DNA of 64,000 nt. Origin: Halomonas denitrificans. Lineage in GTDB: Bacteria > Pseudomonadota > Gammaproteobacteria > Xanthomonadales > Wenzhouxiangellaceae. Shown here in pieces: positions 5,459 through 58,058 of this stretch. The position numbers and the translations under genes were made by a program. The notes below the pieces were generated by a model. That model was not told the origin of the DNA and searched no databases. It worked only from the letters and a program-made list of their open reading frames with translations. Position 1 is the first letter of the stretch. The number at the start of each line of letters is the position of its first letter. Location: the NCBI GenBank assembly GCA_019800895.1, contig JAHVKF010000002.1, positions 682,001 through 746,000 of the forward strand, in the 5' to 3' direction.

Positions 5459-6955
5459 ATGCCGCTCGCCCGTCGCCTGTCCGCAGTCTGCTGTGCCGCC
5501 CTGCTGCTGGTCAGCGCCGCCCTTCGCGCCGACGGTCCCGTCATCCACCGCGGCCTGGGACCGTCCCCGGACACGCTCGACATCCATCGCGCCCAGGGAC
5601 TGTCGGCCTTCAACCTGCTGCGCGACCTGCACGAGGGCCTGCTGACGCGCGATGCCGCCGGCCGACCGGTTCCCGGCATCGCCCGCGCCTGGACCGTCGA
5701 GGACGACGGCCGCCGATGGCGCTTCGAGCTCGATCCGGACGCGCGCTGGTCCGACGGAGAGCCCATCGTCGCGGCCGATTTCGTGCGCGGCTTCGAGCGG
5801 GCCCGCGACCCGGCCACCGCGTCGCCCACCGCCGATTGGTTGGCGCCGATCGCCGCGATCCGTGCGCACGGCGAACGCGACCTGGAAATCCGACTCCAGC
5901 GGCCGCTGCCGTGGTTCGAGGAACTGTTGACCCTGCCGGTGACCTTCCCGTGGCCGGATGAAGGCCGCGACGTCTTCAGCGGCCCGTTCCGCCTGGTCGA
6001 GCGCGTGCCCGGGTCCGTGTTCCGCCTGGCCCGGAACGGCCACTATCGCGAAGCCGATCGGGTCGAAGCGGGCGGCGTGACCTGGCACGTCACCGAGGAC
6101 CCGTCGGCCGAGCTGGCCCGGTTCCGCGCCGGTGAGCTGCACGCCACCGAAACCGTGCCGCCGGGGCGCATCGACTGGTTGCGCGAGCAGCTCGGCGACG
6201 CGCTGCGAGTCAGCCCGTACCTGGGCAGCTTCTACCTGGTCTACAACCTGCGCCAGGCGAAGTTCGCCGACCCACGGGTCCGCGAGGCACTCTCGCTGGC
6301 AATCGACCGGCGGCTGCTGACCGAGCGCGTGCTCGGGGCCGGCGAAGTCCCGGCCGAGGGGCTGGTGCCGCCCGGCCTGCCCGGCTGGCCGGACGCCGCG
6401 CTGGACGGCATCGACTTCGACGCCCGCCTGGCCCGGGCGCGCACCCTCCTGCGCGAGGCCGGGCACGGGCGAGGCAATCCGCTGGAGGTCGAACTGCGCT
6501 TCAACTCCTCCCTGGCCCACCGCCGGCTCGCGGTGGCCGTCGCGGCGATGTGGAAACAGCACCTCGGGGTCCGCACCCGCCTGACCAACGAGGAGTGGAA
6601 GGTCTTCGTCACCAACCGCCGCCACGGCCGGATCACCGAGATCGTCCGCGGCGGATGGATCGCCGACTGGGCGGACCCGGCGAACTTCCTCGACAATTTC
6701 CACAGCGATTCGCCGCTGAACTACGCCTTCCTGTCCGACCCGGACCTGGATCGCCTGCTCGAGTCCGCGCGCGGCCAGCGCGGGCCGTCGCGCACCGCCA
6801 CGCTGGTCGACGCCGAGCAGCGGTTGCTCGACCGCCATGCGATCATTCCCCTCTACTACTATGTATCGCGTCACCTGGTGGACCCGGACCTGCGCGGCTG
6901 GCAGGACAACGTGATGGACATCCACCTGTCTCGCTGGCTCGACCTGGAGAATTGA
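5459..6955 (+). CDS. oppA: peptide ABC transporter substrate-binding protein, first of two (OppA-like)
   Basis: A 498-aa periplasmic solute-binding protein of family 5. It starts with a signal peptide (MPLARRLS, hydrophobic core, cleavage near LRA-DG) and has no clear lipobox. The fold is recognisable from PDTLDIHRA, the PVPGIARAW segment, WSDGEPIVAADFV, and the late FADPRVREALSLAIDR block, where family-5 proteins contact the hinge. It is closely similar along its length to the next gene but about 95 residues shorter. I start at ATG 5459, where the signal peptide opens. A TACACT -10-like box ends 6 nt before it, so the mRNA may be nearly leaderless. The stop overlaps the next ATG by one base (TGATG). 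Confidence 0.9.
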   Translation: MPLARRLSAVCCAALLLVSAALRADGPVIHRGLGPSPDTLDIHRAQGLSAFNLLRDLHEGLLTRDAAGRPVPGIARAWTVEDDGRRWRFELDPDARWSDGEPIVAADFVRGFERARDPATASPTADWLAPIAAIRAHGERDLEIRLQRPLPWFEELLTLPVTFPWPDEGRDVFSGPFRLVERVPGSVFRLARNGHYREADRVEAGGVTWHVTEDPSAELARFRAGELHATETVPPGRIDWLREQLGDALRVSPYLGSFYLVYNLRQAKFADPRVREALSLAIDRRLLTERVLGAGEVPAEGLVPPGLPGWPDAALDGIDFDARLARARTLLREAGHGRGNPLEVELRFNSSLAHRRLAVAVAAMWKQHLGVRTRLTNEEWKVFVTNRRHGRITEIVRGGWIADWADPANFLDNFHSDSPLNYAFLSDPDLDRLLESARGQRGPSRTATLVDAEQRLLDRHAIIPLYYYVSRHLVDPDLRGWQDNVMDIHLSRWLDLEN

Positions 6956-8736
6956 TGACCACGGCCCGCACGCGCCCCGCTGTTCGCTTCCGGTCGTTGC
7001 TGGCCGTGGCGTGGCTGGGGGTGCTGGCCGGGTGCGGCGGCGACCCCGACGCGCCGCCGACGCCGATCGACCTGCCGGAGCCGGTCTCGCCGTGGCTCGA
7101 CGACGACGGCACGCCGCTGGCCGACGCCTTGGCCGACGTGCAGGAACTGCATCGCGGCAACGGCGAGGAGCCGCAGACGCTGGATCCGCATCGCGCCGAC
7201 GGCGTGCCCACGCTGAACATCCTGCGCGACCTGTTCGAGGGCCTGACCACGACCGCGCCCGACGGCCGGATCGTTCCCGGTGCCGCCGGGCGCTGGGACA
7301 TTTCGCGCGACGGGATGACCTACACCTTCTACCTGCGCGACGACGGCAGCTGGTCGAACGGCGACCCGCTGACCGCCGACGATTTCGTGTTCAGCTTCCG
7401 CCGCTCCGTCGACCCCGAGACCGCCGCCGCGTACGGTCGGATGCTGGCCCCGATCGAGAATGCGGTGGCCATCCTGGCCGGCGAACTGGCGCCCGACGCG
7501 CTGGGCGTCGAGGCGCTGAACGAGCGCACCGTGCAGATCCGCCTCGACGATCCGACGCCGTACTTCCTCGGCCTGCTGACCCATGCCTCGACCTATCCCG
7601 TGCACCGGCCGTCGCTGGAGGCGCACGGCGCGGACTTCGTCCGGCCGCCGAACCTGGTCTCGAACGGCGCGTTCCGACTCGTGGAATGGGTGCCGCGCTC
7701 GCGGATCGGGCTCGAGCGCAACCCGCACTTCCACGGCGTCGACGACGTCGTCCTGGAACGCGTCGTTTACTACCCGATCGAGGACGAGAACACGGAGTTC
7801 CAGCGCTTCCGCGCCGGCGACTTAGACTGGACCGACCAGGTCCCGGCCAACCAGTTCCGCTGGTTGAACCAGAACCTCGCACCGGCGCTCTCGGTCTCGC
7901 CCTGGTTCGGCACTTACTTCTTCGGCTTCAACCTGACCCGGCCGCCCTTCGAGGACGACCTGGAACTCCGCCGCGCCCTGACGCTTGCGATCGACCGCGG
8001 CATCCTTACCGAGAAGGTGACGCAGTTCGGCGAGATCCCGACCTTCAACCTGGTGCCCGAGGGCCTGCCGGACTATCCGCCACCCGTTCCCGAGCACGCG
8101 GACTGGACCCAGGAAGCGCGCGAGGCGCGCGCGGTCGAGCTGTACCGGCAGGCCGGCTACGACGAGGAGCGGCCGCTGACCGTGGAGCTTCGCTACAACA
8201 CCTCGGAGAACCATCGCAAGATCGCCGTGGCCATCGCCGCGATGTGGAAGCAGGTGCTCGGCGTTCAGACCCGGCTGATCAACGAGGAATTCCGCGTGTT
8301 CCTGCAGAACCGGCAGCTCAAGCGCAACACGGAGGTGTTCCGCGCCGGCTGGATCGGCGACTACCAGGACGCGTTCACCTTCCTCGAACTGTTCCACTCC
8401 GAGCATCGACGCAACGATTCGGGCTACGCAAATCCTCGTTACGACCGCCTGCTCGATCAGATCGCCGAAGAACGCATCCCCGCACGACGCCGCAACCTGA
8501 TGGTCGAGGCCGAGAGAATGCTGCTGGCCGACCAGGTCGTCCTGCCCGTCTACACCTACGTCACCAAGCGCCTCGTCGATCCCCTGCTCAAGGGCTGGGA
8601 AGAAAACGTCATGGACTTCCACCCCAGCCAGCACATGTTCTTCGTGCGGGCCGCCAACGCCGAACCTGCCGCTCCCGCGCCTTCCTTCGACGAAAGCGAA
8701 TCCGAAGATGCCGAGCCCGACTCGGAGGACGGCTAG
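6955..8736 (+). CDS. peptide ABC transporter substrate-binding lipoprotein, second of two (OppA-like)
   Basis: A 593-aa family-5 solute-binding protein. The N-terminus has a lipoprotein signal ending in the lipobox LAGC (Cys at about residue 23), so it should be anchored to a membrane, unlike its tandem paralogue upstream. Typical blocks are EEPQTLDPHRAD, GRIVPGAA, WSNGDPLTADDFVFSF, LELRRALTLAIDR and the C-terminal YVTKRLVDPLLKGW. The C-terminus is an acidic, disordered tail rich in Glu, Asp and Ser. The paired binding proteins probably arose by duplication and may serve different peptide lengths. The TAG stop is followed at once by the left arm of an inverted-repeat element, which separates this gene from oppB. 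Confidence 0.9.
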   Translation: MTTARTRPAVRFRSLLAVAWLGVLAGCGGDPDAPPTPIDLPEPVSPWLDDDGTPLADALADVQELHRGNGEEPQTLDPHRADGVPTLNILRDLFEGLTTTAPDGRIVPGAAGRWDISRDGMTYTFYLRDDGSWSNGDPLTADDFVFSFRRSVDPETAAAYGRMLAPIENAVAILAGELAPDALGVEALNERTVQIRLDDPTPYFLGLLTHASTYPVHRPSLEAHGADFVRPPNLVSNGAFRLVEWVPRSRIGLERNPHFHGVDDVVLERVVYYPIEDENTEFQRFRAGDLDWTDQVPANQFRWLNQNLAPALSVSPWFGTYFFGFNLTRPPFEDDLELRRALTLAIDRGILTEKVTQFGEIPTFNLVPEGLPDYPPPVPEHADWTQEAREARAVELYRQAGYDEERPLTVELRYNTSENHRKIAVAIAAMWKQVLGVQTRLINEEFRVFLQNRQLKRNTEVFRAGWIGDYQDAFTFLELFHSEHRRNDSGYANPRYDRLLDQIAEERIPARRRNLMVEAERMLLADQVVLPVYTYVTKRLVDPLLKGWEENVMDFHPSQHMFFVRAANAEPAAPAPSFDESESEDAEPDSEDG

Positions 8737-8783
8737 AGGATGAACGCAAAGACGCGAAGGAGCGAAGGAGCGCGAAGGAAAGG
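8737..8783 (+). repeat. left inward-facing repeat arm of the GxxExxY element
   Basis: The arm starts on the base after the TAG stop of the upstream binding-protein gene and reads AGGATGAACGCAAAGACGCG followed by GAAGGAGC-type units. It resembles the second half of the composite repeat found at 42097-42186. Confidence 0.75.
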
Positions 8784-8932
8784 CTACGGAGTAACAGAGG
8801 CGGCGTTTTCCTACGGGAAAAGTGGGAGATTTACGGATGCGGGGAAAGGCGGCCCTCGCGAAACTCGATCCGAATCAAGTCAACCCACCGAGTCATGCAA
8901 TGGATGGGATGCCGTGAAGGCAGATCGAGCAA

Positions 8933-9304
8933 TTGGCGGCTGTGATCCTGGACGAATCGCTGAAGCTCCACAGGGAATTGGGGCCAGGTCTACTGGAATC
9001 GATCTACGAAGTGCTGCTTGCAGATGCACTGAACGCTCGTGGCCTCGAGGTCGCCCGACAGAAAAGCATCGGCCTTTGTCACCGTGGCCGAAAGTTCAAC
9101 GAGGCGTTCAGGGCGGATCTGATCGTGCAGCGCGCGATAATACTCGAGATCAAATCGATCGATGTGGTGCTGCCGACTCACAAAAAACAGTTGTTGACGT
9201 ACCTGCGGTTGAGTCGACTCCAATTGGGGTTTCTTCTCAACTTCGGTGCAGCCTGGATGAGGGAGGGGATCACTCGTGTGGTCAACGGTCTTCCCGAGAG
9301 TTGA
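8933..9304 (+). CDS. GxxExxY family protein (PD-(D/E)XK nuclease-like)
   Basis: A protein of up to 123 aa with the family hallmark GLLESIY (G-x-x-E-x-x-Y) near residues 19-25, preceded by LHRELGPG. A PD-(D/E)XK-like pair follows: the Asp in FRADLIV and the E-x-K in LEIKSID. The C-terminal block LTYLRLSRLQLGFLLNFG is also typical. The family is of unknown function, often multicopy in a genome, and predicted to have a restriction-endonuclease-like fold. The frame has no ATG. The first usable start is TTG 8933, and an in-frame TGA lies at 8915-8917. Relatives usually begin about ten residues earlier, so the N-terminus may be shortened or frameshifted. Codon use is less GC-biased than in neighbours. 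It sits inside the inverted-repeat element. Confidence 0.75.
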   Translation: MAAVILDESLKLHRELGPGLLESIYEVLLADALNARGLEVARQKSIGLCHRGRKFNEAFRADLIVQRAIILEIKSIDVVLPTHKKQLLTYLRLSRLQLGFLLNFGAAWMREGITRVVNGLPES

Positions 9305-9332
9305 CTGGAGTATTCTGGTTTAACAGCTCTGG

Positions 9333-9382
9333 TCTTTCTTCGCGCCTCTTTGCCCCATTGCGGCTTCGCGTCTATCCTCTGG
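9333..9382 (-). repeat. right inward-facing repeat arm of the GxxExxY element
   Basis: Read on the minus strand, the arm gives CCAGAGGATAGACGCGAAGC and then GCAAAGAGGCGCGAAG. This is the same purine-rich pattern as the left arm, so the two form an imperfect inverted pair. It ends about 40 nt before the oppB start. Confidence 0.75.
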
Positions 9383-9422
9383 AGGAACCCGGCATCCCGC
9401 CCGCACGGAGCGTCAGAAGTCG

Positions 9423-10346
9423 ATGCTGAATTATTCGCTCAAGCGACTGGCCTCGGCGGTGCCGACGTTGCTGTTGCTGATCACGGCGGCGTTCTTCCTG
9501 ATCCGGATCGCGCCGGGCGGGCCGTTCGATTCGGAGAAGGCGCTGCCGGCGGAGATCCAGGCGAATCTCGAGGCCAAGTACCAGCTCGACGATCCGCTGG
9601 TCATCCAGTACTTCCGCTATCTCGGCGACATCCTGCTGCTCGACTTCGGGCCGTCGTTCCACTACCGCGACTGGACGGTCAACGAGCTCATCGCCCAGGG
9701 CGCGCCCGTGTCGTTCACGCTCGGCGCGATCGCGCTTGTGCTCGCGGTGCTGTTCGGCACCACGATCGGGGTCTGGGCGGCGATGAAACAGAACTCCGCG
9801 GCCGACTACCTGACCATGTCGGTCGCGATGATCGGGATCTCCGTGCCCAACTTCGTGATGGCGCCGCTGCTGGTGCTCGCCTTCGCGATCGGCCTCGGCT
9901 GGCTGCCGGCCGGCGGCTGGGATGGAAGCCTGTCGCGCATGGTGCTGCCGTCGATCGCGCTCGCCCTGCCGATGATCGCCTACATCGCCCGGATAACGCG
10001 CGGCTCGATGATCGAAGTGCTCCATTCCGATTTCATCCGCACGGCGCGCGCCAAGGGACTGCCCGAGGGTGAAGTGCTGATCCGGCACGCGCTCAAGCCG
10101 GCGCTGCTGCCGGTCATCTCCTACCTCGGCCCGGCCGCGGCCGCGATCCTGACCGGCTCGGTGGTCATCGAGCGCATCTTCACCATCCCGGGCATCGGCA
10201 GCCATTTCGTCCAGGGCGCGCTGAACCGCGACTACACCCTGGTCATGGGCGTGGTGATCTTCTACGGCGTGCTGATCATCCTCCTGAACTACCTGGTCGA
10301 CCTGGTCTACGCCTGGCTCGACCCGCGCATCCGCTACGACACCTGA
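9423..10346 (+). CDS. oppB: oligopeptide ABC transporter permease OppB
   Basis: A 307-aa inner-membrane permease with about six membrane segments, the first near residues 9-28 (LASAVPTLLLLITAAFFLIR). The early sequence FFLIRIAPGGPFD is a hallmark of OppB/DppB proteins. The cytoplasmic EAA loop that docks on the ATPases is visible near residues 195-215 (FIRTARAKGLPEGEVLIRHA), and PGIGSHF follows near 258. It pairs with OppC to form the channel. The ATG at 9423 lies after a GGAG (CGGAGCG) about 12 nt upstream. The inverted-repeat element precedes it, so it may be separated from the operon promoter or rely on read-through. Confidence 0.95.
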   Translation: MLNYSLKRLASAVPTLLLLITAAFFLIRIAPGGPFDSEKALPAEIQANLEAKYQLDDPLVIQYFRYLGDILLLDFGPSFHYRDWTVNELIAQGAPVSFTLGAIALVLAVLFGTTIGVWAAMKQNSAADYLTMSVAMIGISVPNFVMAPLLVLAFAIGLGWLPAGGWDGSLSRMVLPSIALALPMIAYIARITRGSMIEVLHSDFIRTARAKGLPEGEVLIRHALKPALLPVISYLGPAAAAILTGSVVIERIFTIPGIGSHFVQGALNRDYTLVMGVVIFYGVLIILLNYLVDLVYAWLDPRIRYDT

Positions 10347-42096: not shown

Positions 42097-42447
42097 AACC
42101 GCGGATGGACGCAGATGGACGCGGATAAGAGCAAGAATCTTCTAGATGATTGGCGCCAAGGCGCAAAGGCGCGAAGAGAAAAGCGAATTCACTGGTAGAC
42201 CCTGCGTGTTCGCGATGGCGAGCACTCTGCATCGCTTTGCATTCATCCGTGGTCGGCGATTTGCGCTTGAAATCGGCAATGAAACCGAAGATGAACGCAG
42301 ATGAACGCAGACAAGAGCGAAAAAGCTCTAGATGATGAGCGCAAAGACGCGAAGGCGCGACGAGAAGCGAGAAGGACGGGGGGCGACGAGCCGATTGTCC
42401 TTCACGCGATCTCATCTGCGTCCATCTGCGTCCATCTGCGGTCAATG
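42097..42447. repeat. composite repeat cluster between hisB and hisH
   Basis: The 403-nt hisB-hisH gap holds two direct copies of a unit of about 90 nt (A at 42097-42186, B at 42282-42370) offset by about 186 nt. Each has tandem GATGGACGCA-type units, then AAGAGC, CTAGATGAT, and GCGCAAAGGCGCGAAG-type units. Copy A is followed by a degenerate inverted end (42240-42266), and copy B by an inverted end of tandem CATCTGCGTC units (42411-42447). The cluster therefore looks like two adjacent inward-facing elements. It links the ACGCAGATG and GCGCAAAGG motifs as parts of one unit. I see no coding region in it. Confidence 0.8.
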
Positions 42448-49580: not shown

Positions 49581-49600
49581 GCCCTTGTGCAGCAACTTCA

Positions 49601-49859
49601 AGAGGATGGACGCGAAGGCGCAAAGGAGCAAAGGGCGCAAGAAAAACGACAGGACATGGAAAAGGCCTGTCTTGAGGACGGCGCAGAGTACGCTTCAGTG
49701 ATTCCGGCGACTCCGACCCATCAGGGATCAAGCGGAATCGGCAGCGAAAGTGCAGAGCCCAGCAAGCCGCTCGATCCGGTGAAAGAACCTCGGTGACTGC
49801 ATCCCTTGCAGGGTTATTTCGCAGCCTTCGCTTCTTTGCGCCTTCGCGTCCATCCTCTC
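49601..49859. repeat. inverted-repeat element without a gene, downstream of hppA
   Basis: Two inward-facing arms bound about 260 nt. The left (49601-49648) begins AGAGGATGGACGCGAAGGCG, and the right (49814-49859), read on the minus strand, begins GAGAGGATGGACGCGAAGGC. The arms agree over about 45 nt and continue with CAAAGRAGCRAAGG-type units. The interior shows no convincing coding region and no GxxExxY remnant. The element fills most of the 389-nt gap between hppA and the TetR gene. It is the cleanest inverted pair of the family. Confidence 0.85.
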
Positions 49860-49918
49860 GAGAACCGTGCCCGATGGATCGCAGGAACCGCCGAAACGCG
49901 CGGCAGGGAGAAGCAGAT

Positions 49919-57750: not shown

Positions 57751-58058
57751 ACCGAAGATGAACGCAGATTAACGCAGATCAAACAGCGGCACCTGCATTC
57801 GAGGGTTTTCACCGGCGACCTTACGCGGCGATCGTGGTCGGACGTCGATCCCTGAAGAAAAAAGCGCGTGAGAACTCCGGGATCCAGCGCCGCCCCACTG
57901 CTCTGAATGCCAACCTTGAGCGGCTTCCCGGCCTCCGCATTGCGCGTTCGATCGAATGGTCGGACCGGGCACGCCATCGATCGGCGTTGGCGCATCGGGG
58001 GATGGCAAGCAGCTTCGCCTGTCTTTATCTGCGTCTATCTGCGTTCATCTGCGGTCAA
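57751..58058. repeat. inverted-repeat element without a gene, between uvrD and purD
   Basis: The left arm (57751-57785) carries tandem GATGAACGCA/GATTAACGCA units. The right arm (58020-58058), read on the minus strand, gives TGACCGCAGATGAACGCAGA followed by TAGACGCAGATAAAG. Both face inward and enclose about 235 nt with no recognisable gene. The right arm runs into purD: the purD TGA stop is the TGA of its first unit. It is the ACGCAGATG type of the same family as the elements at 8.7, 42.1 and 49.6 kb. Confidence 0.8.

Follow-up and report, generated by a model that had tools for sequence, protein, structure and literature searches.

The window examined here is a 64,000-nt stretch of the Halomonas denitrificans genome (contig JAHVKF010000002.1, positions 682,001 to 746,000), in which a gene for a GxxExxY protein (TIGR04256/PF13366; 8933..9304, + strand; ORF of 123 aa) lies between oppA (6955..8736, +) and oppB (9423..10346, +). 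The assignment is based on nearly full-length profile matches to TIGR04256 (E=1.6e-33, 115.5 bits, curated cut-off 35) and PF13366 (E=2.6e-33, 115.3 bits, curated cut-off 22). Among Pfam families the protein matched PF13366 alone, and no HUH tyrosine transposase domain (Y1_Tnp) was detected. A multicopy GxxExxY family in this genome was ruled out; the gene is present in one copy in the whole genome.

The gene is enclosed by two inverted arms of about 50 nt each. In the left arm (8729..8783, +), the terminus CTAGAGGATG leads into tandem CGCRAAGR-type units that face the interior of the element; the arm reads AGAGGATGAACGCAAAGACGCGAAGGAGCGAAGGAGCGCGAAGGAAAG starting at 8735. The right arm (9332..9386, -) is its imperfect reverse complement, which finishes at 9380. 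An earlier note on this DNA had described the gene as flanked by both arms. This was confirmed using an inverted-arm score, which compares the left flank with the reverse-complemented right flank and is motif-free; the value obtained (19) was reached by one of 624 control windows. The lower GC content noted for the gene was also observed (0.54-0.57 for the element, 0.63-0.72 for the flanks). Insertion between oppA and oppB was upheld as well, but the placement "exactly after the oppA stop" had to be revised: the TAG (8734-8736) falls inside the arm terminus, so the stop is supplied by the arm.

In two relatives without the element (G104 and G168), oppA and oppB directly adjoin each other. Genome G051 carries a degenerate GxxExxY gene with arms at the same opp site, with Y25 and Y90 replaced, and G173 has an arm pair without a gene there. 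The proteins of the window genome (G000) and G051 are just 62% identical and synonymous sites are saturated, whereas the neighbouring oppB has a dS of 0.39. This divergence suggests that the two genes may be separate arrivals or replacements, not one inherited gene. The window reading frame opens after a TGA (8915-8917) and offers TTG at 8933 as the sole start, with no ATG or GTG; GxxExxY proteins of relatives start further upstream with MTEN-like residues. Judged from the sequence, N-terminal decay of the window copy is probable, and its usual start codon has been lost. The catalytic residues (E22, Y25, D62, E72, K74, Q86, and Y90) are intact, and the protein has one cysteine in 123 aa.

Predicted fold of the GxxExxY protein

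An AlphaFold2 model built with 91 sequences reached a pLDDT of 95. The nearest PDB match found by Foldseek was Cas4 SSO0001 (4ic1; prob 1.00, TM 0.53-0.57), with tRNA-splicing endonucleases, LHK and lambda exonuclease among the weaker matches. Invariant or nearly invariant residues in the 91 members include G19, E22, Y25, D62, E72, K74, Q86, Y90, and N103, and the E-D-ExK-QxxxY residues correspond to the RecB/Cas4 nuclease set. At the sequence level, the Pfam Cas4 model was weakly matched by 38 of the 91 members, PADLOC gave weak Cas4 matches only, and a PDB sequence search returned no relative of the window protein. The GxxExxY protein is probably a minimal RecB/Cas4-like PD-(D/E)XK nuclease, as modelled, with an intact active site.

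Arms at GxxExxY genes and their relation to protein clade

Arms were sought at 141 GxxExxY loci. Those usable from the same order number 64, and the other 77 are spread over many phyla, including one archaeon; the multi-phylum set leans to one protein clade, as the genome scan used A2, A1 being too diverse. The median inverted-arm score was 20.5 at the loci and 8.5 in same-locus control windows (99th percentile 13.45), and arm pairs mixed from different loci scored 8.5, like the control. A chance inverted repeat was rejected on the basis of these control windows and cross-locus pairs. It had been proposed that GxxExxY genes lacking arms elsewhere would speak against an association; instead, 80% of the 141 loci exceeded the 99th percentile of the control (94% in the same order, 69% in the phyla set). 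Tandem inward units flank the gene on both sides in 69% of the loci (0.3% in the control); with one side counted as sufficient, the share is 89% (7% in the control). Of the 28 loci with weak inverted scores, 25 still have units on some side. The arms comprise two to five heptamers, C-R-C-N-R-A-K, at 8, 9 or 10 nt spacing, and the units face inwards in 97 of 100. Because positions 1, 3, and 6 are invariant in the regular expression used for the units and positions 2, 5, and 7 are limited to certain bases, variation was measured only inside those limits; the inverted-score test assumes no motif and so gives unbiased evidence for the arms. Among open-access PMC articles, no report of the association was found by family name or by unit sequences, and a viral scan with the window protein returned nothing. 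At one locus (L132, G028:C111:8542-9738) GxxExxY is present in three tandem copies, with TAA inside two.

Genes for four-helix IVP/S23 proteins (PF05635; L090-L119, 29 loci in the same order) were meant as a negative control. As a plain negative control they failed: inverted tandem-unit arms flank them too, with 93% of the 29 loci above threshold, though of another grammar. Their units are GGGAYTC-like (e.g., CGGGACTCGGGACTCGGGACTCGG) and occur at 3.6 per IVP locus and 0.17 per GxxExxY locus. The same arms around unrelated genes would have counted against the association, and in IVP, the one family tested, the grammar is different. A common layout with a family-specific grammar is the pattern expected if each protein family recognises its own units. 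No report of the IVP/S23 arms was found in the open-access PMC literature; in Coxiella, tandem heptamers precede the S23p ORF of an intervening sequence (IVS; PMC4990558).

The arm type follows the protein clade. On a tree of 99 proteins, position 7 of the unit changes 5 times and the unit period 14 times, whereas none of 200 shuffles gave fewer than 19 and 34 changes, respectively; as the shuffles ignore relatedness, these values describe signal along the tree and not independent coevolution. Within one host order, position 7 is T or A in 26 of 29 members of clade I (G in the other 3) and G in 22 of 22 members of clade II (Fisher 1.5e-11). In genomes with several genes (e.g., G079, G009, and G037), each GxxExxY gene has the arm type of its own clade. 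The covariation of arm and gene could come partly from common descent. The proteins compared are often just 30-50% identical, a divergence at which, we infer, flanking DNA free of constraint would long have ceased to look alike.

Gene-free elements and genome-wide arm counts

The arm pattern of the window gene has 105 matches in the window genome, compared with 2 for the reversed pattern. The arms mostly form facing pairs, 150-300 nt apart, that enclose unrelated gene-free DNA. An alignment of 61 of them placed the conserved stretch, CCTTTAGAGGATGGACGCAAAGGCGCGAAGGGGCRAAGRACGCGAAGARAA, at about -6 to +45 relative to the AGAGGATG anchor (8735), with little conservation outside or deeper within the element. 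Of 25 elements, 23 lie outside gene-like ORFs, many of them between convergent genes. The two arms of one element are more alike than either is to arms elsewhere (permutation p=0.013). CGCRGAT, with a period of 10, is a second arm type and has about 100 (103) matches in the window genome.

Three gene-free elements were located in the window. One (49598..49861) has CGCRAAG-type arms as at the window gene and forms a very stable hairpin. Another (57751..58055) has CGCRGAT-type arms, and the orthologous site in G051 retains the same arm type around an unrelated interior. The arms of the third (42098..42442) are again CGCRGAT-type, a second type within one grammar, and enclose nested left arms of the CGCRAAG type. 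Nesting was also observed elsewhere: CGCAGAG-type arm pairs are concentric within CGCRAAG-type pairs at L041:1491-1801, L043, L075:3112-3429, and L077:1048-1459. A plain MITE with a common interior was rejected, since interior matches trace to nested elements of the other type and to other repeats. No family match was found in an Rfam scan, and a promoter scan returned nothing. In folding predictions, the transcript of the element around the window gene and that of the 49.6 kb element both fold far better than shuffled sequences (z -4.55 and -6.65, respectively). Two further repeats were encountered. At the G051 site orthologous to the 49.6 kb element, about a dozen tandem repeats of ~110 bp (CCACCCTTCGCCCGCAAGCGGCCTCCAACAGGCCTTCG...) occupy about 6700-8000 of L122. 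A 45-50 bp stretch of element interior (L075:7739-7786, G000:C3) has well over a hundred copies in G051, on contig C50 and others, at 87-98% identity.

Arm counts were compared across genomes with and without a gene of the matching arm type; the counts include a few matches from each gene's own arms, and all P values ignore phylogeny. In 43 family genomes, CGCNAAG arms number 6-127 where a gene with matching arms is present and 0-10 elsewhere (P=2e-7), and CGCNGAT arms 3-103 and mostly 0-7, respectively (P=5e-5). Exceptions for CGCNGAT, rich in arms yet lacking a gene of the type, are the window genome itself, with its 103 CGCRGAT matches, G139, G223, and, less so, G065. In a replicate comparison of 299 genomes, the five with a CACRGAG-type gene have 6-118 such arms (P=9e-10); the median in the other 294 is 0, and 13 of them have 6 or more. 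For this type G058 is an exception, rich in arms but without a matching gene. Arms in a genome without the gene are consistent with repeats that persist after gene loss, or with an incomplete assembly.

Species comparisons revealed both presence/absence differences and turnover. Two elements (L086:1333-1558 and L075:7496-7953) are absent from G051. At three other orthologous places the arms are kept and the interiors have near-chance similarity, below the expectation from neutral divergence. No target-site duplication was found at empty sites, where the compared genomes are too diverged to show one, and no clean recent transposition was found in these comparisons. Within the family, the GxxExxY gene is mostly inherited in place, and it occurs in 8 of 72,556 plasmid records. 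Near-identical genes in unrelated surroundings were found in two pairs of loci (L176/L180 and L211/L221). In L176 (2640-3560) and L180, the GxxExxY gene with CACAGAG arms lies within a 700-bp segment that has terminal inverted repeats of its own (CTACTCTTT...).

A probable nuclease and its repeats

Taken together, the enzyme and the repeats probably form one genetic element system that has not been described previously. The nearest known arrangement is that of REPINs and RAYTs, whose features are taken from PMC3116915 and PMC8049555. As in that system, two inverted conserved arms surround a diverse spacer in extragenic positions, in tens to hundreds of copies; a gene lies between its own repeats, is inherited in place and is nearly absent from plasmids; and the repeats are commoner where the gene is present (three arm types, phylogeny ignored). 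The enzyme and the arm architecture differ, so the GxxExxY element is not a REPIN/RAYT member: RAYT is an HUH tyrosine transposase and GxxExxY a predicted PD-(D/E)XK RecB/Cas4-like nuclease, the arms are tandem direct non-palindromic heptamers where REPIN repeats are REP palindromes, and the spacers (80-550 nt) are longer than in REPIN. The protein shares its predicted fold and the E-D-ExK-QxxxY residues with Cas4, RecB and lambda exonuclease; unlike Cas4, it is about 120 aa long and lacks the four-cysteine Fe-S part, and the window locus has no CRISPR neighbours. With insertion sequences and MITEs the elements have in common inverted termini, gene-free derivatives and presence/absence differences, but their interiors are not one common sequence, the gene does not proliferate with the arms, and a target-site duplication was not seen among genomes too diverged to show one.

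By analogy with RAYTs and REPINs, the reading we favour, with somewhat better than even confidence, is that the arms, as DNA or as hairpins, are the cognate substrate of the GxxExxY protein, an unrelated nuclease that would bind and cleave them. Gene and arms would make up one element, and gene-free pairs of the same arm type would be its non-autonomous population. The nuclease would spread or maintain copies at a low rate by working in trans on the hairpins or cruciforms that paired inverted arms would form. The earlier note had suggested that the protein may recognise or process the arms. The way in which arm type goes with protein clade and with genome-wide arm counts supports recognition, which we consider quite likely, with the qualification that the start of the window copy looks damaged. 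That the protein propagates or processes its arms has about an even chance. Points against the favoured reading are that these comparisons gave neither a target-site duplication nor a clean recent transposition, that inheritance of the gene within the family is mostly in place, and that certain genomes are rich in arms of a type for which they have no gene. The replacement of interiors while the arms persist is also not what simple cut-and-paste of the whole unit would predict.

The same replacement of interiors between lasting arms would also make sense if host template switching or recombination spread and homogenised the arms, with GxxExxY merely riding in some of them. The greater likeness of arms within an element, and the fact that nearly all copies lack the gene, fit such a process. 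It leaves unexplained why arms of one grammar occur at almost every GxxExxY gene across many phyla and why the unit type tracks both the protein clade and the genome-wide arm type, and we regard it as rather improbable. We judge it unlikely, though less so, that the system works on RNA. In that case the arms would pair in the transcript as an IVS-like hairpin, which RNase III would process or which would shape the operon mRNA; the protein would bind or cut arm RNA or be a passenger. A small gene between inverted tandem-unit arms is likewise the layout seen for the IVP/S23 proteins, which are known from intervening sequences of 23S rRNA, and the tandem heptamers of the Coxiella IVS are in keeping with this. 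The GxxExxY protein belongs to PF13366 and not PF05635, with another fold and unit grammar, and the window element lies between oppA and oppB, not in rRNA. The strong predicted folding of the two transcripts follows from the inverted arms and does not discriminate; the fold points to the DNA exonuclease/Cas4 group, though tRNA-splicing endonucleases are among its weaker matches; a location between convergent genes puts many of the gene-free pairs outside any operon; and no Rfam family was matched. With heptamers repeated at roughly one helical turn, the arms look like operator arrays, and copies lie near gene ends, as if the arms were sites for a protein that regulates its own or neighbouring genes and the scattered copies its regulon. 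Operators would not be expected to form symmetric inverted arms on either side of a gene, to occur as gene-free pairs around unrelated interiors, or to be present in one species and absent from another, and the predicted fold is that of a nuclease with an intact active site. We regard a regulatory role as very improbable.

A broader proposal is put forward tentatively, at a little under even probability. It holds that these are bacterium-wide extragenic elements whose paired tandem-heptamer arms are recognised and propagated by a minimal RecB/Cas4-like nuclease, enzyme specificity and arm sequence evolving together; that the four-helix IVP proteins, with their different repeat grammar, represent a parallel class; and that REPIN/RAYT is one example of a general strategy that has arisen on three or more occasions, each time from an unrelated protein. 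With a specific DNA partner, the widespread and routinely annotated GxxExxY genes become open to a direct test of function. The pairing of protein and arms would also explain a scattered repeat family found in many genomes and would provide a compact nuclease whose sequence preference is readable from its own flanks. The way of life known from REPINs and RAYTs would then extend to an unrelated enzyme fold.
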